Shown piece after piece: positions 1 to 61,288 of a DNA stretch of 64,000 nucleotides (its first letter is position 1; each line of letters starts with the position of its first letter). Position numbers and translations under genes: made by a program. Source of the DNA: Terebella lapidaria (taxonomy: Eukaryota > Annelida > Polychaeta > Terebellida > Terebellidae); assembly GCA_949152475.1 (NCBI GenBank), contig OX424568.1, forward strand, positions 25,271,667-25,335,666, given 5' to 3'. The notes under the pieces were generated by a model. The model worked only from the letters and a program-made list of their open reading frames with translations, had not been told where the DNA came from and did not search any database.

Positions 1-107
1 AGACGGCGCTGCGGGTCAAGTGGTCACATTGCGAATGAGAAACTGAAGACTCCCGGATGAAGGAAAGACCTTGCTTTGATGGACCGCTGGTCCGGTGCTG
101 TATTTTT

Positions 108-260
108 AGCTTACCGGCACATGGCCCGATAAGCTATTGGCGTGGTTTTTCGTCCGTCCGGGAAAACTTCCGGGGTTTAGGGGCTTGAAAAAGCTAAAGA
201 TAGCCCCAAAACTCACTTTTTATGAGCAGACGTGTATTTAGGGGATTAATTTGGGGATAC
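108..260 (+). mobile_element. Family B 5' end fragment with terminal hairpin
   Basis: The stretch at 108-135 folds as AGCTTACCGG...CCCGATAAGCT and is followed by a TATTGGCGTGG and CGTCCGTCCG stretch. The same layout (hairpin, TATTGGC, then CGTCCGTCC repeats) begins the complete-looking copy at 58,997. No transposase is visible, so this is a non-autonomous relic. The downstream boundary is not clear; similarity to other copies fades after about 260. Confidence 0.55.
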
Positions 261-474
261 GGGGCTCACACGGGAGAGGAAATTTAAAGTCTAACTAGAG
301 TGTATAATTTTTATGTTCTTATACCGTTGAGATGGTTTCCCTGATCATTCTGTTTTTTTACAGAACTTGAAAATCTCAACCACAACCGGAGATATTTCTA
401 TTTTTGTGAATTACTTTTTTCCAATCTATCAGCATTTTGCAGGACCTCATTATTTATTATAATTAGATATTCAT

Positions 475-989
475 GACGTCATATGAGTCAAGTACCATAA
501 TTAGCTATCTAAACCTCATTTATGCAAGGGTTATGATGTAAATAAAGGTTCCTATAGAAACTGATAGGTTTTGTGGTAAAACATAGTCAGTCTTTTGTTA
601 TGCCATCATGTTGTCAAGGCTACACATTCAGAGCTAGCGCCCCTTAGCAACCAGTTGTTGGATGGGTTGCTATGGACAATTGAACTGTTAGGACATGTGA
701 AGGTGCTACTTTCTTTCAACATTTTGACAAAGGATCATAATGTAACAAAACTTGAGGTCTTAATGATGTGGAATCATCAGTGGGTATCAACAAAATCTCC
801 ATAGCAACGTGGTTGCTATGGGCCATATTCCGGCTTTGGTTGCCATGACACCAACAAAATTCATTTAAAATTTGAATATTTTCTGTATGGACTCATTATG
901 TAGAACAAAAATTATTTTCATGTTCTTTAATATTATGCAGTACTGGTTTCAATGAGCTCATTATCTTTCAGTGACTCATATGACGTCAT
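475..989. repeat. Inverted repeat pair with CRE and AP-1 core motifs
   Basis: The 18-base word ATGACGTCATATGAGTCA occurs at 473-490 and in exact inverted form at 972-989. Each contains a CRE core (TGACGTCA) next to an AP-1 core (TGAGTCA). The 480 bp between them holds no convincing gene, only several GGTTGCTATGG-like words. It may be a small foldback element or a paired regulatory motif. An octamer-like ATTTGCAT lies just outside near 1000. Confidence 0.5.
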
Positions 990-1199
990 CATTGCTCATT
1001 TGCATATGACCCCGAAAGGTAAATAGGACTTGTCATAAACAAACCGCCATAAAATAGTGACTATTCGAGATATTTCAATTTTGTAAAAACAGAAATGATC
1101 CCCAGACTTCCGTCTTTGATATTGACACTAAACTAAAAAAAGTTATTTTTTCACTCTAGTTAGGCTTTAACATGGTGAAAGCTCTTTAATCTAAACATT

Positions 1200-2010
1200 T
1201 GGTACGTTCGTCCGTCCGGCAAATAACTTTTTTTGCCTTGATGAATTTTTCTGAAAATTTATTAGAACATTCCTTGGGCTAATACACTGAAACTGTGTTT
1301 TTTTTTTCGTTTTTTTTTCATTCGATCCTGTTTGAAGATTTGACAGCCATTTTTTTATGAAAAGTGGCTAATTTTGGACTTTGATGGCCTTTTATCTCGA
1401 AAACTGTCTGATCAGTTTGAGATTTTTGTTTCAAGACATCTCCCTCATGTACATCAATGGCAAGTTTCATTGCCCTTGAATTGCCAGTCTGCATGTGGCA
1501 GCGATTTTGATTTTTTCACGTGTCGGCGAAAAAAATATTTTTTGTCCCCAATCGAGCCACTATTCGTTCTGAGACGTTTCCAGCAATTTTTTTTTTTGGC
1601 CATTAAAAAAAAAATTTGGGACTTTTTGGGGAAAATTTTTGGGGAAATTTCACCCAATCATCTTTCATAATGGGAGCTTTGCGGGAGTAAACTCCTAGAA
1701 CTTTTCAAGATAGAGCCTAAGTATTGGCACATTCAAATGGGAAATCAGATATTGCGGTTTGAATGATGGATGACCTTGAATTTGACCTTGAATGACTTTG
1801 GAAGGTCAAAACGGCCTTATTTTGTCGAAAGAAACGATGATTTTTGTCTTTGGCTGTCATTTTCTCAAAAACTTTGACAGTTTTCCTCAAAATGCATGAG
1901 ATTCTCCCTATGTACCTTTGTGATGTGTATAAGATTTGTTGCCTTTGAATTGACGGCCTGTGAATATATTTGACCATCACCATGTCTGGTGCATAAGAAC
2001 CTCAGAACAG
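1200..2010 (+). mobile_element. Family B internal region
   Basis: This segment repeats, in order, blocks found at 59,040-60,120: CGTCCGTCCGG, a CTAATTTTGGACTTTGA block, AAAACTGTCTGATCAG, a CATAATGGGAGCT block, and the GACCTTGAATTTGACC block. No coding capacity stands out; short frames on both strands differ between copies. It is a degraded non-autonomous element. Confidence 0.6.
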
Positions 2011-2074
2011 CCTTAGAATGGTGGGACTATTAGACCTTCCTTTCTTTGAAAATCTATCCTTCATTTACAACAGA

Positions 2075-2500
2075 ACTAAGCAGACTTCTAAAGTAAAATT
2101 CTACTCATTGATTTCACAAGGTACAGTTGTAAAATACACCTTAGAAACCATCTCAGAGACACTAAATTAAAAAAAATATCTCGGGGGCGTACAGTGCCCC
2201 CGAACCCCCAGACCGCATAAGGCTTCACTCGCTAGTCAGTGATGTATCCTCTATTCACAACAAAAACAGACTCCTAAAGTGAAAATCTACTTAGTGATTC
2301 CACAAGGTACAGTTGTAAATACACCTTAGAAACCATCTCAGAGACACTAAATTCCAAAAATTTATCGGCGGGCTTACGGCGCTCCCCAACCCCCCAGACA
2401 GCATAAGGCTTCGCTCGCTCACACTATTCCAAGATTACGTACATTTAAGAAGAGCACCCCCCCTATTCAAAAATCCTGGATCCGCCCCTGCAATGTGTCT
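2075..2500. repeat. Two-unit tandem repeat with GGGGGC hairpin
   Basis: Two units about 183 bp apart share CACAAGGTACAGTTGTAAA, CACCTTAGAAACCATCTCAG and GCATAAGGCTTCNCTCGCT. The first carries GGGGGC and GCCCCC arms around GTACAGT. The segment ends with AAATCCTGGATCCGCCCCTG, a word I recall at the ends of invertebrate repeats. It is probably a transposon tail; the family is not identified. Confidence 0.5.
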
Positions 2501-2589
2501 ACGTCAGAGAAGAAAAGAGAAACCGCTCGCAACAGCAGAAGAACCTTCACCTACACATACCGCATGACGAGTATGGATGGATCATCCCA

Positions 2590-3120
2590 CGATGTCTGTA
2601 AGAAATTTTTCCTGTAAACATTAGGGTTAAAGCCCAACAACGATCGCATCGTCATGTCGGTGAAAAAGGGGAGCACTGGGGCAGTGACTGCGACAAAAGA
2701 TAGGCGTGGTAGACATCGTCCGGCCAACAAGATGGAAAAAAGTTCCATCACTGATCACATCGAATCTTTCAACCCATCCATCAGCCACTACCGTCGGGAG
2801 CATGCTCCTAATCGCCGCTACATCCAGTCAGACATCACAATAAAGTTCATGTATGCCGACTTAAAAACCAAGTCAAACCAAGCATGCTCATACCCAACCT
2901 ATCGCAAGGTCCTGCATGGTATGAACATCAGCTTTGCCAAGCTCGGGGAGGAGGAGTGTGAACGTTGTTGTCAACGGCAACTGCACATCAAGGCTGTCAA
3001 CCCCGTTGGTGGCTGACTCACCGTGTCAGCTGCAAATGAACACGATGCCAGCAGTTGCTCTCTCTGTGAAAACTGGGAAAAACCTCGCGACCGCTCAGTC
3101 TCAGATCGACAGCACTACTT
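2590..3120 (+). pseudogene. Transposase-like protein, N-terminal part
   Basis: The best frame reads MSVKKGSTGAV, then RRGRH, HIESFNPSISHYRREHAPN, and MNISFAKLGEEECERC. I recall this series from a large, mostly unnamed family in aphids, Hydra and molluscs whose later part carries a DNCSxQNKNW motif typical of transposase-like catalytic cores. The frame can be read upstream of the ATG at 2654 (FFL, stop, TLGLKPNND), so the ATG is probably internal and an in-frame stop lies near 2618. Near 3016 the frame closes and the following CSLCENW lies in another frame, so the copy is broken. The catalytic half is absent here; a possible piece lies at 21.5 kb. Confidence 0.5.
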
Positions 3121-3235
3121 ATTTCTGCGTATTTACCATCTGGTGGCCAGCAGGGGAGAGTACGAAGACAGTCTAGATTGTGTTTCCGATTTCTTAATAG
3201 TAGTAGATCTATATTCAAGTTCAACACAAAACTTT

Positions 3236-3725
3236 ATATGATTTTTGGCCATAACTGGCCATAAGGCCTGGTCGGATCATTTGAATTTTTTTTGTTTCCA
3301 TTTGACACAAAACCATATTTCTATCTTGAAAACTGAAAAAGTTGGCAATCAACCGTAACCCCAATATTAAATGTTGGACACAAATCAAATCACAGGAATC
3401 CAAGCAAGTCCACGGTTTTCATGATCTTTATTCGCTAAGAAATTTAATACATCTAGATCTATGAGGAAAGTTTTTGAGCAGGAAAAATCATAGAAGTGTA
3501 TTCTTATAAAATATCATTTTTACAAAGTACCGTGCAATGCGAACGTCAAACAATATGCCAAATTCGGTTCAGACCCGCAAATGACATGTTTGATGTGAAC
3601 TTTTTAAATTTTCAAGATAAAATTCCGAAATTTGGTGAAAAAATACGGTTTTATGCCAAATGGAAACGAACAAACTTTCAAATTGATCAAACAATCTTAA
3701 ACAAAGTTAAGGCCAAAAATCATAT
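3236..3725. mobile_element. Foldback element with 15-bp perfect terminal inverted repeats
   Basis: ATATGATTTTTGGCC at 3236-3250 is matched exactly by its reverse complement at 3711-3725. Further inside, GTTTCCATTTG and TCTTGAAAA on the left pair with TTTTCAAGA and CAAATGGAAAC on the right, so most of the 490 bp folds back on itself. The middle carries the words GAAAAAGTTGGCAATC and AATATTAAATG, also seen near 25.8, 29.6 and 49.1 kb. No coding frame is supported. Confidence 0.7.
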
Positions 3726-4190
3726 CAGGTTTTGATTTGAATTTGGCTTTAGTAATCGAATTCGTGATTTAGTTTCTAGATCTACTCAGAAATGGTACAG
3801 ACGGGACAGAACAACTGGACCAACCGCATGAGACATGCCGGTGAGACATAAGCCAACACCGATGCCGGTGGTACATTTTAGTGGTCGCTCTGCGACTGAC
3901 ACATGCTTGATTAGACTGGTGTTGGTAGTCTTTCTCATTTGTGTATTCTTCCTTTTTTCTGGGAATGTCTATAATTCACCAATAAACTTATTGAAATATG
4001 TATGAAGCTTGCCTAAGCATTCACTCATTTTTATCATGACATGAATGGTAAAAGCAGAACCATACTCTATTTGGTTCTTGTCTAAATTAAATTAAAATGT
4101 AATCAAATATAGGTTCAAATTAACCTAAATCCTTTAGATCTATGTTGAAATTGTACTTGTTGGATGTTGCATCCAACATGTAAACAAACC

Positions 4191-4387
4191 TTTTTAATTT
4201 GGAAGATATTGTACATTTCAGAAAATATTGTGCATTTTTTTTTTTTTCTATATATATATATATTTATTTCGCATCACTAGTGCGCACAATACTCACATAG
4301 GTTCATACACAAATAGACACATAAACATACCAAAAAAAAAAAAAATGCACAATATTTTCTGAAATGTACAATATCTTCCAAATTAAA
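4191..4387. repeat. Near-perfect inverted repeat, about 50-bp arms
   Basis: AATTTGGAAGATATTGTACA followed by TTTCAGAAAATATTGTGCAT and a T-run on the left arm is repeated in inverted form on the right arm, which begins with an A-run. The loop of about 90 bp holds a TA run and ACACAAATAGACACATAAAC. It lies directly downstream of the minus-strand LINE fragment, so it could be that element's 3' region joined to an inverted copy. Confidence 0.75.
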
Positions 4388-4393
4388 TCGGTT

Positions 4394-4798
4394 TTACATA
4401 GGTTTCAGGTCCCTCCATTTTTCTAAATACAGATCTAACTTCAGGTTTTTTCTTGCTGTTTCTTCTTCAATTCTACGATAATTATTGATACAATTAATAA
4501 CGCCTTTTCCTAAGGGTAAACAGTTATTTAATTTGCAAGTGTAGATATATCTTTTGGCAATTAAGTATAATAAATCATAAATTGTCGAAGGGGATCGTAT
4601 TTGACCTAGTAATATTTCTCTACAATTACATTCGTGAAAATCATTACCAAATTTAGATAAAATACTATGAAATTCAAACCAAAATTTTACAACGCAGTTA
4701 CATTCTAAAAACAAGTGTAATAATGTATCATCTTCTTTTTTACAAAACGAACATTTTGGCGTAAGTACAATACCTATTTTTTTTAAATAGGAAGGCAT
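4394..4798 (-). CDS. LINE reverse transcriptase C-terminal zinc-binding tail (fragment)
   Basis: The 134-residue frame has CSFCKKEDDTLLHLFLEC followed by a hydrophobic stretch and IAKRYIYTCKLNN, then YRRIEEETARKN and LEKWRDL. This cysteine-rich motif plus an AKxYIYxCR-like helix is known from the C-terminus of L1/Tx1-type LINE polyproteins. No reverse transcriptase core lies upstream (higher coordinates), so the copy is 5'-truncated, as usual for target-primed insertion. The annotated start is arbitrary. The clade call is from memory. Confidence 0.65.
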   Translation of the reverse strand: MPSYLKKIGIVLTPKCSFCKKEDDTLLHLFLECNCVVKFWFEFHSILSKFGNDFHECNCREILLGQIRSPSTIYDLLYLIAKRYIYTCKLNNCLPLGKGVINCINNYRRIEEETARKNLKLDLYLEKWRDLKPM

Positions 4799-4933
4799 TT
4801 ACAGGCAAAATGTTGTGTAATAGTCTATACTGTAAATATAGTAGATTTGTTGAAACAGTGAGAGTATATAACTTCCTAAAATACCTTTGTTATGTTTGTC
4901 ACCGGCATGTCGAACATAACGTCTTCTACAAGT

Positions 4934-5191
4934 TCACGAGTAACCAAACCTTTTCCATAACAACATTTCTGGACACAGTGTCTGGGCTGGTTGCAGTTGA
5001 TCCGTCAAGTTCATACATACGTCGGGATTTCTCATAGTTGTCTTTGTGGTCAGTGTGCTTCTTGCAGAGATCTCAAGGGTTTGAATACTTTGTGTTCTCA
5101 GTTGACAATGGATGATTGTGCTTGTGTTTGTTCTTTTTTTACACTCGTCACACTTCTCACATTGCTCTCCTCCCAGTTCAGCATAGCTCAT
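4934..5191 (-). pseudogene. Second fragment of the transposase-like family
   Basis: The minus-strand frame begins MSYAELGGEQCEKCDECKKR, closely parallel to MNISFAKLGEEECERC at about 2930 on the plus strand. Beyond that point the similarity is not visible, and no catalytic motif follows. It is probably a small relic of the same family in inverted orientation. Chance similarity of a short stretch is possible. Confidence 0.3.
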
Positions 5192-5344
5192 GTTCAGGGA
5201 TTACATGCAACTATGGTATGACTGACAAAATACTTGTTATTCAAACTGTGTACTTCATGAGTATTTAAGTTTAGTAGTAATACATCGAGCAACGAGACAA
5301 TCAGAGATTGCAGACCCTCGCCCTTCAGATTTAGTCACTAAAAT

Positions 5345-6683
5345 TAGGCGATAATTGAGAGTTTTGGTCTTAAGACCATCTGTTGTACGCCATACGATTG
5401 GGAATTGGCCAAAGAAAAATACAAAAATAGGTTGAAGATTTAATATTGATTAGAACCGGAGTTATAGCCAATTATGTGATTTTCTTTTTTCCGTTGCCAT
5501 GGCAACCGTTTTCTGAGCCACTACCATAGCACTCCAGCCCTATAAATTTCAAATCGATCGGACCGTTTGCATTTGAGTTATGACCGCAGACATTTGCACT
5601 GAAACGTCGCTGGCCAAAAATAACGGAAATCCCCCAATTTTTCGACAACGGGCGATAATAGAGTTTTCGTCGTACGACCATCGGTCGTACACCAAACGAT
5701 CGGGAATTGGCCAAAGAAAAATACAAAAATAGTTGGAAAAAATAATATCAAGTAAAACCGGAGTTAGAGCCAATGATGTGAATTTCTTTTTTCCGTTGCC
5801 ATGGCAACCGTTTCCATCCGATTTTGGTAACATTTTAAAGGGACTGAGCCACCACCATAGCACTCTTGCCCTATAAGTTTCAAATCGATCGGACCGTTTG
5901 CCTTTGAGTTATGAGCGCGGACATTTGCACTGAAATGTCACTGGCCAAAAATAACCGAAATCGTGACCCCCAATTTTTCGACATCGGGCGATAATAGAGT
6001 TTTCGTCGTACGAGGATCGGTCGTACACCAAACGATCGGGAATTGGCCAAAGAACAATACAAAAATAGTTGGAAAAATTAATATCAGGTAGAACCGGAGT
6101 TAGAGCCAATTATGTGATTTTCGTTTTTTTCCGTTGCCATGGCAACCGTTTTCATCCGATTTTGGCAAAAATTTGAAGGGACTGAGCCAGCACCATAGCA
6201 CTCTTGTTCTATAGATTTCAAATCGATCGGGCCGTTTGCCTTTGAGTTATGAGCGCAGACATTTGCACTGAAACGTCGCTGGCCAAAAAAAAATCGAAAC
6301 CGTGACCCCCAATTTTTCGACATCGGGCGATAATGGAGAGTTTTGGTCGTACGACCACGGGCCATATATCAGATGATCAGGAATTGGCCATAAAAAATGC
6401 AAAAATAGTTAGAAAAATTTATCTTGAATAGAACCGGAGTTATGGTCAATTATTGATTTTTACATTTTCCGTTGCCATGGCAACAGTTTTTGTCCGATTT
6501 TGACCAGATTCGAGGAGGACCGAGTCACTGAGATACCGCTTCATCCCTATAAGTTTCATGTTGATCGGACCATTCTCCTTTGAGATATGCGCGCGGACAG
6601 ACATACAAACAAACATACAAACAAACAAACATACAAACGGACAGACCCAATTGCAATACCCTCTGCCCCTATCGGGGCGAGGG
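5345..6683. mobile_element. Family D element: four tandem units ending in a tail and hairpin
   Basis: GGCGATAAT followed by GAGTTTT recurs at about 5347, 5651, 5987 and 6326, giving units of 304, 336 and 339 bp. Each holds GGAATTGGCCA, AGAACCGGAGTTA, GTTGCCATGGCAAC and TCAAATCGATCGGACCGTTTG-like words. The last unit leads into an ACAAACATAC run (6600-6640) and a hairpin at 6659-6683 with arms CCCTC-GCCCC and GGGGC-GAGGG. Conserved minus-strand frames exist in every unit but only because the units are similar; I do not call them genes. Confidence 0.75.
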
Positions 6684-6798
6684 TAATTATGCAATGTTGT
6701 TGTACCTGTCAACTTATTGCTTCCCTGCAACTAATTCAATCAGACTCCGATGTCGTGCGCATCAAGGCTGTGATGGCCTTGTCATTTTTTGGGTGAAA

Positions 6799-7464
6799 GT
6801 AGGTATCAATCTATCACCACAAATACAGTAGATTTTGATGATGCCAATAACAAACGTAAAATACAACATTTTACAATAGAAACAAAGCCCGACCAAATAG
6901 TTTATCCAAAGACACACTGGCGTCATCAGGGGCAGACAGTGTGTTAAATGTAGTTGTTTCTACTGTACACCTGATGAAATTAGTATACAACTGCCCAACA
7001 ACCTATGAAAATATTTTAGAAATCCGAAACAAACCCCATGGAACAGATATATGACAAGTACATAAGTACCTAATCAATAGCCAGAAGGCTACTGAGTTGA
7101 TGGTATCCTCGGGGACAGATTTAACGTCCGCCAGCAGTGACACCGACTCAGTGGTATGAATGTAGGTATCAATTTATTACCACAAATACAGTAGATTTTG
7201 AAGATGCCAATAACAAACATAAAGTACAACATTTTGCAATAGAAACAAAGCCCGACCAAATAGTTTATCCAAAGACACACTGGCGTCATCAGGGGCAGAC
7301 AGTGTGTTAAATGTAGTTGTTTCTACTGTACACCTGATGAAATTAGTATACAACTGCCCAACAACCTATGGAAATATGTTAGAAATCCGAAACAAACCCC
7401 ATGGAACAGATATATGACAAGTACATAAGTACCTAATCAATAGCCAGAAGGCTACTGAGTTGAT
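6799..7464. mobile_element. Family A repeat, tandem dimer (363-bp unit)
   Basis: GTAGGTATCAATCTAT at 6799 and again at 7162 starts two near-identical units. Each includes ACACACTGGCGTCATCAGG, GTAGTTGTTTCTACTGTACA, a CAGATATATGACAAGTACAT block and CTACTGAGTTGATG. Other copies lie near 15.0, 17.1, 19.5, 25.0, 38.1, 48.4 and 57.3 kb in both orientations. Inside each unit ACACACTG and CAGTGTGT can pair. Confidence 0.85.
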
Positions 7465-7779
7465 GTACACACAAGTTAAAGTACACACAATCTGCTCCTG
7501 ATTGTTGGAATCGAACATCTCACACACCTTTATGCTGGTCGACCTTCATCTTCTCTTGTCTTTTTCTGGACTTCAATTCTTTTGACTTGATGAAAGAGCC
7601 AGACGTTCCGGTCATTATACTTCATTGACCAAAACGCTTTCGTTTAAGGGATAAAAACTGGTTTGCCATGATGTTTGTTACGATTAGAAACGCTCGAGGG
7701 ACTGTGTCGCAGAGCCCTATCGTTTGGCCAATAGTCATCACTTGATCATTATAATATATCTAGTCTACTACTAGCTTGT

Positions 7780-11159: not shown

Positions 11160-12454
11160 GACATAGTTAGGCTATTATAATGACTCTACAAGTACCAATC
11201 AACATGATGTGATAATATCTCCCATCATCTGAGTTACAGACAGACCGAAATGGTCTATTAATTCCTGATGACGACCATAAAACTTCTTAAAGGTCGACTG
11301 CAATCTAGGTCTCAAATAGCCCTGCTTTAATAACGTATTAGTTAGCATTTTGGCTCTGGCTAGAAAATCTTGGTAATTGGAACATGCTCTAGCATATTGA
11401 ATGAGTTGAGACACATACGCAGGAGCTGCTGGTATGTTACTACTCAGTACTGGGAAATTTATGATGGGAAAATTGAAGTCATCACGTTTGTCATATAATC
11501 TGGTACATAGATTGTCATTTTTGTCTATTTCGAGGTATAGGTCAAGATATGCTGCCGACTTGGAGGAGTCCGTGGTGTCTTTAATTTCCAGTCCATCCGG
11601 ATATATGAGATGTAAATAATCACTGAACTTTGGATTGTTCAATGACAATACATCGTCAATGTACCTGTATGTGAAATTGAACGAACTGGCTAGTTTCTTT
11701 TCTCCTCTCTTCAGAAGCGATTGTATGAACTCTGCTTCGTATGAATATAAAAACAAATCTGCCAACAATGGAGCACAATTAGTCCCCATTGGAATTCCAA
11801 TAGTTTGTTGGAATATTTCACCACCAAACTCTACGAAAATGTTGTCGATTAGAAATTCCAGCATACCAACAACATCGGTTTCTGTATATTTAGTGTCTGA
11901 TGCTGAATGTTCTTGAACGAAATAAACAGATTTATAATTAACTACCAGGTACTTATAACGTCTCTTCCCATTCTTATGGAAAAAGCATTGTAATATGAGA
12001 TTTTTCAACCTTTCTCTAACTTTAGAGTGAGGTATGGTTGTGTAAAGGGTAGAAAAGTCAAAAGTTTTGATACTGGTTATTGTGGAAAATGAGCGTGATT
12101 TGAGATTTTCAATAAGCTCTTTTGAATTCTTCAAAATCCACATCTGATTAATTCCACTTCTGGAATAAGCAGTGTCACAATACTTCTGAAGTCCTTCCTT
12201 TACAGCAGATAATAATTTAGTCAACGATATTGATAATGGTTTGGTGGAGCACACAGCTGACCCTGCAATATAGCGTTGCTTGTAAGGACATTTGTGTAAT
12301 TTTGGAGTCCAGTACACAGCAGGAAGGTCAAGTTCTTTCTGAGTAGTTGCAATGACATAGTTAGGCTATAACAACGACTCTACAAGTACCAATCAACATG
12401 ATGTGATAATATCTCCCATCATCTGAGTTACAGACAGACCGAAATGGTCTATTA
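11160..12454 (-). mobile_element. Penelope-like retroelement copy with 101-bp direct terminal repeats
   Basis: A 101-bp segment at 11,160-11,260 recurs at 12,354-12,454 with three mismatches. The repeat holds the end of the reverse transcriptase frame and a short 3' region. The upstream repeat is joined straight to an internal part of the frame. This matches the partial head-to-tail arrangement known for Penelope-like elements (so-called pseudo-LTRs). The copy is 5'-truncated. Three differences in 101 bp suggest a fairly recent origin. Confidence 0.8.
11199..12317 (-). CDS. Penelope-like reverse transcriptase
   Basis: A 372-residue open frame has YWTPKLHKCPYKQRYIAGS near the start, FDFSTLYTTIPH, then IGIPMGTNCAPLLADLFLYS, the catalytic FRYIDDVL-type motif as YRYIDDVLSLNN, and the C-terminal RLQSTFKKFYGRHQELIDH. 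These are the hallmark blocks of Penelope-like reverse transcriptases, which copy element RNA into DNA. The two aspartates of YIDD are present. The open frame continues upstream of the first ATG to the repeat junction near 12,361, so the ATG is not the natural start. No GIY-YIG endonuclease follows. Close relatives are common in bivalves and cnidarians as I recall. Confidence 0.9.
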   Translation of the reverse strand: MYWTPKLHKCPYKQRYIAGSAVCSTKPLSISLTKLLSAVKEGLQKYCDTAYSRSGINQMWILKNSKELIENLKSRSFSTITSIKTFDFSTLYTTIPHSKVRERLKNLILQCFFHKNGKRRYKYLVVNYKSVYFVQEHSASDTKYTETDVVGMLEFLIDNIFVEFGGEIFQQTIGIPMGTNCAPLLADLFLYSYEAEFIQSLLKRGEKKLASSFNFTYRYIDDVLSLNNPKFSDYLHLIYPDGLEIKDTTDSSKSAAYLDLYLEIDKNDNLCTRLYDKRDDFNFPIINFPVLSSNIPAAPAYVSQLIQYARACSNYQDFLARAKMLTNTLLKQGYLRPRLQSTFKKFYGRHQELIDHFGLSVTQMMGDIITSC

Positions 12455-12459
12455 AATGG

Positions 12460-13140
12460 TCTAGCAATATATATAATTTAACTTACAAAATATATAAAAA
12501 AAATCATCACATGTTGTTGGGATAGATCACACGCTACAAGCATTTGACCGTTAACTGCTGACACCTGACGAAAACTCACAAAAAGGGCCGGTTTGTTTAT
12601 ATGTATTCATGCGCACAGTAACAGCTCCATTCAACATGAAAATTCACATGTGCATAGAAGAATGCCCCTAATACAACTATACAAACCAAAACAGAGACAT
12701 ATTACATGTGCATTTGGAGGAGAAACTGGGAGTTTTTAAATAATATAGTAATTTGATGCGCCATTTTGACCATATAAGGAAACCGATTCCGGTCCGTAAC
12801 GTTAAGCATGGATCGAGCGACCGCCATGTGTGTATCTGTGGCGCGCGCGGAGGGGGGAGGGCGGATAGTAACTCAGAACATGCATGATCGGGATTACTAG
12901 TATGACACGAACAACTCTGCCTGGATCCGACTCCAAATTATCTCGAATCAATTGGTATACTAATTATTTAAGATATATATTTAGGTCCCTATATACAAAT
13001 ACATGTATGAGCTTTAATTCGGTTGATAAATACAGGTAAATTGAGTAAATATTCCTTTAATTACCTCATCCGTGCTGACCATCATGCAGGCTGTCTCTGA
13101 TTGTTATGAGTAGGAGGGAATACCGAATGACCAAGCATTG
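12460..13140. other. No supported gene; short GC-rich patch
   Basis: No coding signal. A GCGCGCGCGG run followed by GGGGGGAGGGCGG at 12,841-12,866 is the only compositional outlier and might be a promoter-like or quadruplex-prone patch. Confidence 0.4.
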
Positions 13141-13146
13141 CACGAA

Positions 13147-13466
13147 TGATTGTTTCCGCGCAAAGAATACTTCTTTGCACGAGAAGAAATATTGTTGTCG
13201 CGCAAACAATATTGTTTTCCCGCAAACTATAGCACATTGATTTCCCATAAAGAATACTTGTTTGAACGGAAAGAAATATTGTTGTTGCGCAAACAAATAT
13301 TGTTTTCCCGCAAAGAATAGTTGTTTTTGGGCAAAGAACATTGTTTTCCCGTAAAGAATAGTTGTTTGCACGGAAAGAAATATTGTTGTCGCACAAACAA
13401 TATTGTTTTCTCGCAAAAAATAGTTGTTTGCCTGCAAATAAATGCATATAATGTCGCGCAAAGAAT
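13147..13466. repeat. Short-palindrome minisatellite, array 1 (CGCG cores)
   Basis: About fifteen diverged units of 20-22 bp follow the pattern ATTGTT, a CGCGC-like core, then AAACAAT or AAAGAAT. The best unit at 13,188-13,213 has perfect 9-bp arms AATATTGTT and AACAATATT around GTCGCGC. Minus-strand frames through the array repeat FFAxKQ and are artefacts of the repeat. The array abuts the 3' end of the Tc1 relic. Confidence 0.8.
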
Positions 13467-13504
13467 ACGATCTGAAGAAAAGAATGCCTGGCAGAAAAAA
13501 AAGC

Positions 13505-13940
13505 CACCGTAGTTTCTGGATATCTTGTTGAGGAATAAGACCCCATTCGGCACTAAGTGATGTTGCAAGTTCATCAAGATTGCGCACTGGTGAGTCGATT
13601 TTCCTGATGCGTCTACCCAACATGTCCCATACATGTTCGATGACGTTCGGGAGATTTAGCAGGCCACAGCATGTGTAAGCAGTCTTCCCGGTTCTCCCAG
13701 AAGTCGTTCACAATTCTGGCTCGGTGTTGAGTTTCGTTGTCATCTTGGTATATGAATCCACGTCCTATGGTGGCAAGGCCAAAAGGAATGGCGACTGGTC
13801 CCAGGATATCACGCAGTTAACAGTGGGCTGTGAGTGTTCCGGGAATGACCACGAGTGCTGATTTGCGGTTGTAGCTGATCGCTCCCCACACCATCACGCT
13901 TCCACCTCCGAATCGGTCTGTCGACTTGATGAAACAGGAC
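13505..13940 (-). pseudogene. Tc1-like transposase, C-terminal half
   Basis: In minus-strand frames one reads GGGSVMVWGAISYN, VIPGTLTAHC, then QDDNETQHRARIVNDFW, WPAKSPE and IEHVWDMLGRRIRK, ending IPQQDIQKLR. Tc1 transposases have GGGSVMVWGGIS, a second catalytic aspartate in QDNARPHxAR and a DDE glutamate in SPDLNPIEHVWD. Here the aspartate side is kept as DDNETQHRAR, a stop follows LTAHC, and a frame change lies between SPE and IEHVWD. The N-terminal helix-turn-helix and the left inverted repeat are not visible. It is an old inactive copy. Confidence 0.8.
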
Positions 13941-13949
13941 ATCAACTAA

Positions 13950-14555
13950 AACGTGCGGCAACAATTTGTCGTCTGACAGGAACCCTTCTTATGGGTTTCT
14001 GCTTCTGACCAACTATCCCGACACACCACCTGACTAGTCCCAGCAATGGTCATCTTAAACCTAAAAATCGGTGGAGTGGTTAAGAAAACCATATGTCAGC
14101 CTTAGTTTCAAATCCGGTACTGAACCTGCCTATTGCTTTAAAACATGGGGCTTCGTTTTAAAGCGAACTTAATATTCCAAATTGATTTATTCCTCATCTG
14201 GACATACATGTAGGCTTATTTACCTAGAGTATTATGTTTTGGCATCGATTCAAAATAATTATTCATAAGAAATAATATCACTAACATTCACACATCTAAC
14301 ATTTGTGAGTGATATATACAGCCTACTCGCTTTAAAGAGAATCCCACGATTGAAGAGAGGCGGGTTCAGTACCATTCCCCCCCCCCCCCCTTCTAGGTTG
14401 GCGAGGGCCAAGTGTGATATGACATACACATACAAAAGGTTTTTGGACATAGAAAATTACAAAATTAGTTTGACGTTGACATCTCAAATATAATCTTATA
14501 GTTATAGTGATTTTCCGTATTTGACCTTTTATGTGAAGTTGATCTTATTATTCGA
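13950..14555. other. No supported gene; C-run at 14,377-14,390
   Basis: Only a 14-base C homopolymer stands out. Adjacent frames change frame across it and are not credible genes. Confidence 0.4.
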
Positions 14556-14559
14556 CCTT

Positions 14560-14905
14560 GACCTTAAATTTTATTTTGGTAATTTTCTATGTGATAATGC
14601 ACATCCCTGATCAAAATTTCATAGAAAAAAATATTCCTTATTGAAGGCACAGGCTTAGATAGAATATTTGCCCATGTTAAAGGATAGGGAAAAATCTGAT
14701 TTTCAAATGGTTGCCATGGCAATAATTTTCATCCGATGTCGCCCAAAATTCAATGGGTTCTTTAGAAGATCTATATGAATGTTTTTGATTTGAAATAATC
14801 GGATCAAAGCCCTGGATGCTAGGCTGCTAACAGACACACAAACAGACATACAAAATATATGCAGGTCGTATATAATAATTACCTTTACATAGGGAAGCAA
14901 TGTCG
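14560..14905. mobile_element. Family D related fragment
   Basis: The words GGTTGCCATGGCAATAATTT, TTCATCCGAT, and a terminal ACAGACACACAAACAGACAT run match the last unit of the 5.3-6.7 kb element. The strong terminal hairpin is not retained here. Upstream GACCTTGACCTTAAATTTT is shared with families B and C. Confidence 0.5.
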
Positions 14906-15308
14906 TAAATTGTCCCTTTCTTGGTGTGTACCTTGGCAGTCAATTTCAGTTGTATACTAATTCCTCCATCAGGTGTACAGTAGAAACAACTACATTTAAC
15001 ACACTGTCTGCCCCTGATGACGGGCAGGTAAATATAATAATTACCTTACATAGGGAAGCAATGTCGTAAATTGTCCCTTTCTTGGTGTGTACCTTGGCAG
15101 TCAATTTCAGTTGTATACTAATTCCTCCATCAGGTGTACAGTAGAAACAACTACATTTAACACACTGTCTGCCCCTGATGACGCCAGTGTGTCTTTGGAT
15201 ATACTATTTGGTCGGGCTTTGTTTCTAATGCAAAATGTTTTATTTTATGTTTCTTATTGGCATCATCAAAATCTGATTGTATTGGTGGTAATAGATTGAT
15301 ACTTACAT
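14872..15308. mobile_element. Family A copy, inverted, with a 158-bp tandem duplication
   Basis: A block running from ATAATAATTACC through GGGAAGCAATGTCGTAAATT to CTGCCCCTGATGACG occurs twice, offset by about 158 bp. It joins unrelated flank to the inner end of family A. The second copy runs on to the family-A terminus GATTGATACTTACATT. The duplication therefore happened after insertion. Confidence 0.75.
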
Positions 15309-51817: not shown

Positions 51818-51906
51818 TTTTTCTGCGTATTTACCCCATCGACCAAGGGAAAGATAAATGCACGTGCAGGCAGTATTTGGCTAGTATATCACACATGGCA
51901 AAAGTA

Positions 51907-52060
51907 AATAATGTTTTTTCCGCGTAAATAACGTTATTTCCGCGTAAATAACATTATTGCTGCGATTAAAAAGTTTATTTACGCGGAAAAAAACTTACGC
52001 GTAAATAACTTTATGTGTAAATAACTATATTTACGCGGAAATAACATTATTTACGCGTAG
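51907..52060. repeat. Short-palindrome minisatellite, array 2 (CCGCGT cores)
   Basis: GTTATTTCCGCGTAAATAAC at 51,933-51,952 has 7-bp perfect arms around CCGCGT. About seven variants follow in both orientations (TTTACGCGGAAATAAC and TTATTTACGCG). The array starts 90 bp beyond the right edge of duplication copy 1. Confidence 0.85.
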
Positions 52061-52198
52061 ATTATGTTGATTATATATCAGTCAGGATTACTTCGAGAAA
52101 TATATAGCTTTTTTTTTCACAATATCACTTATCAGCCACTGTAGACACCAGAAAAATCAACGAAGACAACAGAGCGACCCCGGTTCATCGGCTTGGAG

Positions 52199-58996: not shown

Positions 58997-60515
58997 AGGT
59001 TACCGGACCTTTGGTCCGATAACCTATTGGCATGGCGTTGCGTCCGTCGTCCGTCCGTCCGTCCGTCCGGCGTTAACATTTTTATCTTTAAAGTTAACGA
59101 TCGAATCTTTCTGAAATTTTGCACAAAAATGCCTAAAAATATTTTGAGAAGGAGGTATTTTTTTGTTTTTTGATTTTCGCATTTTTTTCAAAATGGCGGC
59201 CGTTTTTGTCGAAAAACGCTCAATTTTGGACTTTGACGGCCATTTTCTCAAAAACTGTCTGATCAGTTTTGAGTTTTTGGTTTCAAAAGATTCCCCTCAT
59301 ATACCTCTGTGATATGTATAAGTTTGGTTGCCCTAAATCTGCCGGTTTTCGTGTGGCGGCCATTTTGAATTTTTGGCGGGTCGGCGTAAAAAATTTTTTT
59401 CACCCCAAATCGCATTACTATCCATTTTGGGCCATTTCTAGGGCAAAAAAAATTTTCGCCCTTTGAAAAAAATTTTGGACTTAGAAAATTTTCGGCACTT
59501 TTTTCCTTCATAATGGGAGCTGTCCGGACTGTACTCATAGAACGCTTGAAGATAGAGCTTAGAAATTGGCACTTTCAAATGGGAAGTCATATATGGCGAC
59601 TTGTGTGGTGACCTTGAATTTGACCTTGGATGACCTTGAAAGGTCAAAACAGCCATTTTTGGGTCGAAAAATGCTCAAATTTGCACCTAATCTGTATTTT
59701 CTCAAAAACTGTCTGATCAGTTTTGAGATTTTCACTTAAAAAGCTTCCTCTTATATACCTCTGTGACCTGTATAAGTTTTGTTGCCCTTGAATCGCCGAT
59801 CTCCGTGTGGCGGCCATTTTGAATTTTTGACGAGTCGGCGAAAAAAATTTTTTTCGCCCCGAATCGCATTACTATCCATTTTGGGCCATTTCTAGGCAAA
59901 AAAAAATTTTCACCCTTTGAAAAAAAGTTTGGACTTGGAAAATTTTCGCCACTTTTCCCCACTTTTCCCCTTCATAATGGGAGCTGTCATGACTGTAATC
60001 ATAGAATGCTTGAAGATAGAGCTTAGAAATTGGCATTTTCAAATGGGAAGTCATATATGGCGACTTGTGTGGTGACCTTGAATTTGACCTTCGATGACCT
60101 TGAAAGGTCAAAACAGCCATTTTGGGGTCAAAAAATGCCCAGATTTGCCTCTATAGATGAAATGCTTGCAGATAGAGCTCATGTTTGCATTATGAACATA
60201 TAGGAAGACATATATGGCACAACTAATGATGGCCTTGAACTTGACGTCAGATGACCTTGAGTGCCAAATGTCTGACTTGGAATGTGTAAATTGACCTGAG
60301 CGGCCTAAACGATTCCACCCAACATATAGAATATCAAATGCCGCACACATACTTGTAATGGTAACATCGAAGTTCATACGGATGACCTTGATTGGTAAAT
60401 CCCAAGGTCATATGTTTACACTGCTAACCTTGATTGGTAAAAGGTCTGTACCTGCCAATGCTGCCATGGCCAAACCAAAATTGTCCGGTAACCTATCTTA
60501 GCCTTTGGGCTAATT
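58997..60515 (+). mobile_element. Family B, longest copy
   Basis: Starts TTAGGTTACCGG with a hairpin GGTTACCGGACC, TTT, GGTCCGATAACC, then TATTGGC and CGTCCGTCC repeats. Two long internal units (59,600-59,720 and 60,050-60,130) repeat the CATAATGGGAGCT and GACCTTGAATTTGACCTT blocks. Ends TCCGGTAACCTATCTTAGCC and TTTGGGCTAA. Both ends share TAGGTTACCG in inverted orientation. It lies between two exons of the unknown element, so it was inserted into its intron or after decay. Confidence 0.75.
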
Positions 60516-60997: not shown

Positions 60998-61212
60998 CAC
61001 GTATTTAATATTTTTTTTGTGTATTTAAGATTTTCAATAATAATATTTTTAATAATAAATTATTAAGTACGCATACAAAATATTAAATATGCGTAATAGA
61101 TGATTAAATATGCATATACAGATTCAATACGCATATATAATATAAAATACACAAAATAAATGTTTGAATACGCATATTTAATATTAAATACGCAAAAAAA
61201 ATATTAAATACT
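60998..61212. repeat. Short-palindrome minisatellite, array 3 (CGCA cores)
   Basis: About nine units of the type ATTAAATACGCATA occur in both orientations; ATTTAATATTAAAT (61,166-61,181 region) is a perfect palindrome flanked by CGCAT and ACGC. It starts 55 bp after the end of the unknown element's frame. Confidence 0.75.
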
Positions 61213-61288
61213 TTTAACAAATGATTAATATAATTTCTTACAAATTATATCAGATTCCGTATAACTTCTACCAGTTTTTATTCGGTAC

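Follow-up and report, generated by a model that had tools for sequence, protein, structure and literature searches.

The question raised by this locus is whether a row of short, AT-rich, near-palindromic units in a polychaete genome is an isolated minisatellite or part of something larger. The stretch analyzed here, referred to as the window, comprises 64,000 nucleotides of Terebella lapidaria, and the row in question is designated array 1 (Table 1). About fifteen recurring units had been counted here in a preliminary description, and this count is borne out both by TRF, which reports 14.0 copies with a period of 21 at 13149-13443 (further rows over the array have periods of 41, 62, and 104), and by a by-eye reading of 13149-13467, which gives 15. 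Autocorrelation in array 1 reaches 0.54 at lag 62 and 0.52 at lag 21, compared with a maximum of 0.39 in 100 letter shuffles, and 10 units form a chain under the family-1 position matrix, where 200 letter shuffles yield at most 1. Such arrays are also more frequent than in shuffled sequence, with three TRF repeats of period 18-23 and at least 6 copies in the window (starting at 13149, 51904, and 61052) and none in 20 first-order Markov shuffles. The other two, arrays 2 and 3, had been described as following the same plan as array 1, and they indeed represent sister families.

Table 1. Array-associated features in the window
Feature	Position	Strand	Description
Interior of family-1 element	12471..13148	+	~0.7 kb, similar to copy L007
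Array 1	13149..13467	+	~15 tandem near-palindromic units of 20-21 bp; family-1 subterminal array
Right terminus of family-1 element	13468..13511	+	ends GCCACCGTA; TA at 13510-13511
Array 2	51904..52059	+	family-2 units, period 20, 8.1 copies
Right end of family-2 element	52060..52143	+	terminus match 52122-52143; TA at 52142-52143
Array 3	61052..61245	+	family-3 units, period 20; relic

A truncated family-1 transposon in the window

Far from being an isolated minisatellite, array 1 belongs to a truncated family-1 DNA transposon, of which it forms the right-hand subterminal array. In the source assembly (761,603,190 bases, or 761.6 Mb, in 438 contigs), the array-1 query has at least 83 matches (76 candidates, 40 scored), many of which are opposite-strand pairs a few hundred bases apart. 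The arrays sit as inverted pairs at both ends of elements that start with TACGGTGGCT and finish with AGCCACCGTA. Two complete copies, L008 and L010, are both 837 bp long and consist, in order, of TACGGTGGCTTTTTTCTGCCATG, an array, a spacer, an inverted array, and CATGGCAGAAAAAAGCCACCGTA, and the right terminus of the window copy is identical in type to theirs. The left end of the window element was not found by a terminus scan of the window. Within the interior, 12471-13063 is 90% identical to copy L007, and the similarity between the two copies breaks off where the element itself ends, at 13513; the neighbor to the right of 13513 therefore lies outside the element. Three additional copies of array 1 with 99-100% identity occur on the same contig within 0.5 Mb, and window positions 12000-15000 are segmentally duplicated, this region as a whole having three further copies at ~99% identity on C15 near 25.53, 25.64, and 25.75 Mb.

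The Tc1 relic said to adjoin array 1 could not be confirmed. At 13510-13816 (-), there are decayed frame pieces of 67 and 66 aa that have no Pfam match at E<=0.1, although their motifs look Tc1-like. To the left of the element, at 11502-12365 (-), is a 288-aa open frame with an RVT_1 match (E=1.8e-6; 28.2 bits, cut-off 29.6). The window also contains long-unit tandem repeats at 5513-6502 (338 bp), 6794-7465 (363 bp), 14870-15183 (161 bp), and 59242-60148 (454 bp), each with ~2-3 copies and 87-99% matches, and as far as seen they have no relation to the 20-bp arrays. Families 2 and 3 have complete copies elsewhere in the genome, with related termini and inverted array pairs; at array 3 itself, the terminus scan of the window found no recognizable termini. 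Arrays 2 and 3 are each found once more, at 98%, near C15 25.58-25.59 Mb.

Ten arm families and a transposase gene

The suggestion of a class of repeats with a common layout and differing arms is upheld by ten arm families with related termini in this one genome, each with a unit of ~20 bp. Families 2 and 3 derive from the window arrays, families 4 and 5 and families 6, 7, and 8 from loci picked by terminus, family 9 from a locus picked by gene, and family 10 from a bystander element in L059. The repeat of family 7 is 82 bp (four times 20.5), and that of family 8 is irregular, at around 21 bp. Genome-wide, termini of the family-1 type number 248+252 at up to 3 mismatches (control 0+0), those of family 2 359+388 (control 0+1), and those of family 3 117+119 (control 2+0), both at the same tolerance, while exact matches to the general pattern number 745+780 (control 0+0). 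Among 13 elements found by terminus, 9 carry arrays by TRF with a ~20-bp unit or a multiple of it (the L059 and L064 bystanders, L071, L072, L073, L088, L089, L092, and L093). The remaining 4 (L074, L075, L090, and L091) lack a regular array by TRF, L075 being scored as array-less despite a 2.0-copy 20-bp TRF repeat; family-1 unit chains amount to 3 units in L074 and 1 in L090. As these 4 elements show, a copy can exist in the absence of a regular array by TRF, so the arrays may be of help to an element and yet dispensable.

The complete copies read have TA..TA termini, and some single ends deviate (e.g., CACGG in L023 and the L059 bystander). Most of the termini read fit TAYGG..CCRTA, and those of family 2 are TACAG..CTGTA. 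The 6 bases outside TA..TA match at 6/6 in 20 of 38 candidate pairs and at 5/6 or better in 27, compared with means of 0.55 (maximum 5) and 1.02 (maximum 6), respectively, for shuffled partners. These 38 pairs keep evident mispairings, such as L016, L044, L047, L066 476-2481, and L094 13-3881, and omit L002-L004 (duplicates of L001), repeat views of an element, and the true L094 pair (13-5745). The latter, a full-length pair, has no in-register 6-bp duplication, its flanks being ATACAT vs CATACA, one base off. As the order is NNNNNN-TA..TA-NNNNNN, the TA is part of the element and not of the duplication.

In families 1, 6, and 9, the gene of one transposase family lies just inside the array. 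The best copy is L095 (family 9), where a 3-kb stretch that does not include the right end runs from the terminus through a 12.4-unit array to an open 399-aa frame. Pfam places the protein in rva_4, an integrase core domain (E=1.3e-35, 123 bits), with a sub-threshold Clr5 match at the N-terminus (16.7 bits against a cut-off of 22.3), no zinc domain at E<=1, and no THAP match. By eye, D141, D200, and E242 fit a DDE triad, and a PDB search with the protein returned a single match that is not meaningful (E=1.1). This frame is present in five copies at 99-100% identity, which suggests that family 9 has moved recently.

For family 6, inverted array pairs are ~5.6 to 22 kb apart (40 scored places). 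L094, a copy of this family that spans 5.7 kb (13 to 5745), carries an array at either end, and just inside one of the two is a short open frame. The protein of this frame, representing family-6 exon 1, has 95 matches in the genome, 24 of which cover residues 1-81 at >=90% identity; a scored family-6 array is at most 2.5 kb away from 15 of these 24 and at most 8.5 kb away from 23, the exception being C7:1450613. The varying distances between arrays, together with similarity blocks that are several kb apart in some copies, suggest that family-6 copies contain a long intron and later insertions. In family 1, a relative just inside the array of L006 is 45% identical to the family-6 protein and 51% to that of family 9, and further relatives are located in the interval from L007 to L006, which appear to be opposite ends of a single ~11-kb element. 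In family 7, L089 has matches to both protein parts 3.3 and 4.8 kb inside the terminus; families 2-5, 8, and 10 yielded no transposase gene.

Unit anatomy and the possible role of the arrays

Mean unit spacing in families 1-6 is 20.70, 20.00, 20.37, 20.49, 20.32, and 20.20 bp, about two helical turns, with steps that are almost always 20 in family 2 and a mix of 20 and 21 in families 1 and 3-6. These values, like the covariation data below, come from 19, 16, 18, 3, 1, and 1 loci, respectively, and families 7-10 are outside this set. Amplified multiples of the unit are also present, at 41, 61-62, 82, 101-104, and 122-123 bp. In the six families, a CpG core alternates with a second dyad, AAYRTT, at a distance of ~10 bp, and the arms that separate the two are family-specific. 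The core is CGCG or a form such as TGCG, CGCA, CACG, CGTG, or TGCA, and in family 1 also CGGG and CCCG; the second dyad is mostly AAYRTT in 20-bp steps, and 7-base forms (e.g., AACTATT, AATAGTT, AATGATT, and AATCATT) are common too. The CGCG center given in the preliminary description holds as a tendency, but exact CGCG occurs only three times in array 1, where CCCG, CACG, CGCA, and similar variants make up the remaining cores, and not at all in window array 3 or the arrays of families 7 and 8. Some units may resemble CENP-B boxes and E2F sites, a likeness given no weight here.

Each unit had also been described as a small palindrome, and the units are indeed near-palindromic but imperfectly so: in family 1, the self-complementarity of the 20-mer TRF consensus amounts to 70% for the window copy (p=0.15) and to 80% for the L008 right array (p=0.02). 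For the other 20-mers, the p-values are 0.0015 and 0.0035 in family 2, whose consensus unit is fully palindromic, 0.40 and 0.09 in family 3, 0.0035 in family 5, and 0.008 in family 6. Multi-unit consensuses give 0.03 and 0.045 in family 4 (41-mer), 0.0005 in family 7 (82-mer), and 0.23 in family 8 (64-mer), values that are too favorable because the multiples contain near copies. Self-complementarity is above that of shuffled letters in families 2, 5, 6, and 7 (p 0.0005-0.008), weakly so in families 1 and 4, and not in the family-3 20-mer or in family 8. Palindromicity rests on this consensus test, as the position matrices, for which both strands were used, are symmetric by construction.

The best explanation, to which we would assign a probability of roughly 0.55, is that array 1 is the right-hand array of a truncated IS3EU-type family-1 element and that its units are transposase-dimer sites. 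Each near-palindromic unit is a predicted dimer site that would be bound through the N-terminal helix-turn-helix-like region of the transposase, and the 20-21 bp repeat would set successive sites on one face of the DNA. Because the sites would share one face, each end could act as a platform for cooperative binding, on which the enzyme would more readily locate the two ends and pair them. We infer that the arrays are rows of dimer sites on one helix face; the ~20-bp unit could also be inherited from one ancestral array, independent of helical phase. The arms would differ between families because, as we propose, each transposase changed together with its sites. A broader version, which we put forward tentatively and regard as more probably wrong than right, is a lineage of integrase-type DNA transposons with helically phased dimer-site ends, in which a fixed geometry (two dyads per 20-21 bp) is combined with fast-changing specificity arms of 4-5 bp, a co-evolving transposase, and assembly of a transposase filament along the array. 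If true, the families of this genome would form a naturally occurring set of recognition codes.

An unlikely but serious alternative to dimer sites is that the arrays are transposon ends without a role, expanded by slippage and gap repair, with a 20-bp plan that stems from an ancestral array and arms that have drifted. The multiples of the unit, which show that segments have been amplified repeatedly, would fit, as would the elements whose regular array is slight or missing (L074, L090, and L091) and the many copies of the short L074 type that share one tip. Against it stand the arms, which turn over from family to family on a constant unit length and two constant dyads, and the arrays at both ends of gene-bearing copies.

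Less probable still is a role of the arrays in host-protein binding or chromatin structure that would control the element's expression or silencing, for example through phased YR/CpG steps that wrap on a nucleosome or through a CpG-reading factor. The CpG observed/expected ratio is raised in the arrays (1.35-4.6, against 0.73 in the window), the core variants TGCG, CGCA, CACG, and CGTG resemble CpG decay, and in L094 and L095 the open frame begins just downstream of an array. Yet one host factor would favor one motif, whereas the arms differ by family, and arrays are also present at the gene-distal end.

That the units function as hairpins or cruciforms (the form given to them in the preliminary description), with selection for the pairing itself, is highly improbable: near-palindromic units and a few covarying symmetric positions (F1 pairs 0 and 6, z 7.6 and 3.5; F3 pair 8, 4.5; F6 pair 9, 3.1) favor it, but only these 4 of the 60 positions in six families have z>2, the other 56 fall short, and 10 have z<-2, pairing less than independent letters predict. 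Several pairs are moreover unpaired in 77-91% of distinct units (F1 pairs 3 and 7, F3 pair 3, F4 pair 5, F5 pair 4, and F6 pair 7). With little compensatory change in the arms, hairpins are probably not what is conserved, and the pattern is compatible with a protein that reads two half-sites.

What had appeared to be scattered AT-rich minisatellites is one class of transposon ends, and arrays at transposon ends are also a source of dispersed short satellites. The same genome holds a gene-bearing, apparently recently mobile family. Ten arm variants on one scaffold allow one to ask if subterminal repeats serve as transposase sites and in what way specificity shifts from one sister family to the next.

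Placement among known transposons

IS3EU elements are marked by TA..TA termini, 6-bp target duplications, and an integrase-like DDE transposase without an HHCC domain, according to the available text of PMC10045372, and fungal members end in TAYGG..CCRTA in that of PMC12730594. The present elements share the TA..TA termini and the duplication length, and their transposase is an integrase-like DDE enzyme that lacks an HHCC zinc domain (by Pfam in family 9 and by similarity in families 1 and 6); we therefore provisionally file them by structure as IS3EU under these published criteria and not as Tc1/mariner. For family 2, with its TACAG ends, and for the families that yielded no gene, this structural filing draws solely on termini, duplications, and arrays. 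Tc1/mariner had been our first reading, from the terminal TA, and it is ruled out by the 6-bp direct repeats that flank the TA in place of a 2-bp TA target duplication and by the gene within the array-bearing elements, which is rva_4 and not a Tc1/mariner or pogo transposase.

A pogo-like partner was also considered and rejected. L075 contains a DDE_1-like fragment (E=0.00042; 20.4 bits, under the 22-bit cut-off), and the 12 loci read from its 33 genome matches include no convincing TA-C[AG]GTGGC end with a ~20-bp array, though loose matches to the end, with one mismatch, and short repeats of other kinds do occur at some of them. The fragment is treated as a chance neighborhood. Near the match in the pogo-like DDE_1 relatives L077, L079, and L081-L083, there are GC-richer minisatellites with units of ~30-93 bp.

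The closest likeness is to IS3EU/GingerRoot, with TACGG..CCGTA here and TAYGG..CCRTA in fungi; the ~20-bp palindromic arrays found here are unmentioned in the available parts of these sources (PMC10045372, PMC12730594), and none in IS3EU were found in the accessible text of the open-licence PMC literature. Long terminal inverted repeats composed of tandem repeats, as in Galileo and Foldback, are present here. Galileo, of the P superfamily, has long repetitive terminal inverted repeats with several transposase-bound sites, but its transposase carries a THAP domain, as opposed to rva_4 here, and short palindromic units at ~20-bp spacing are not described in the available portion of the source (PMC3688188). 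Foldback/Tetris elements likewise have long inverted ends of tandem repeats and are mostly gene-less, whereas the Tetris repeats are ~220 bp with target duplications of 8-10 bp, according to the sections available, and the duplications here are 6 bp (PMC4079207). The pearl-family MITEs and satellite-bearing elements of mollusks resemble the present elements in their dispersed, short satellite-like arrays, some with a palindrome; as far as the text at hand describes them, their repeats are internal, whereas those of T. lapidaria, with a unit of ~20 bp, make up the two ends and are oppositely oriented (PMC5139131).
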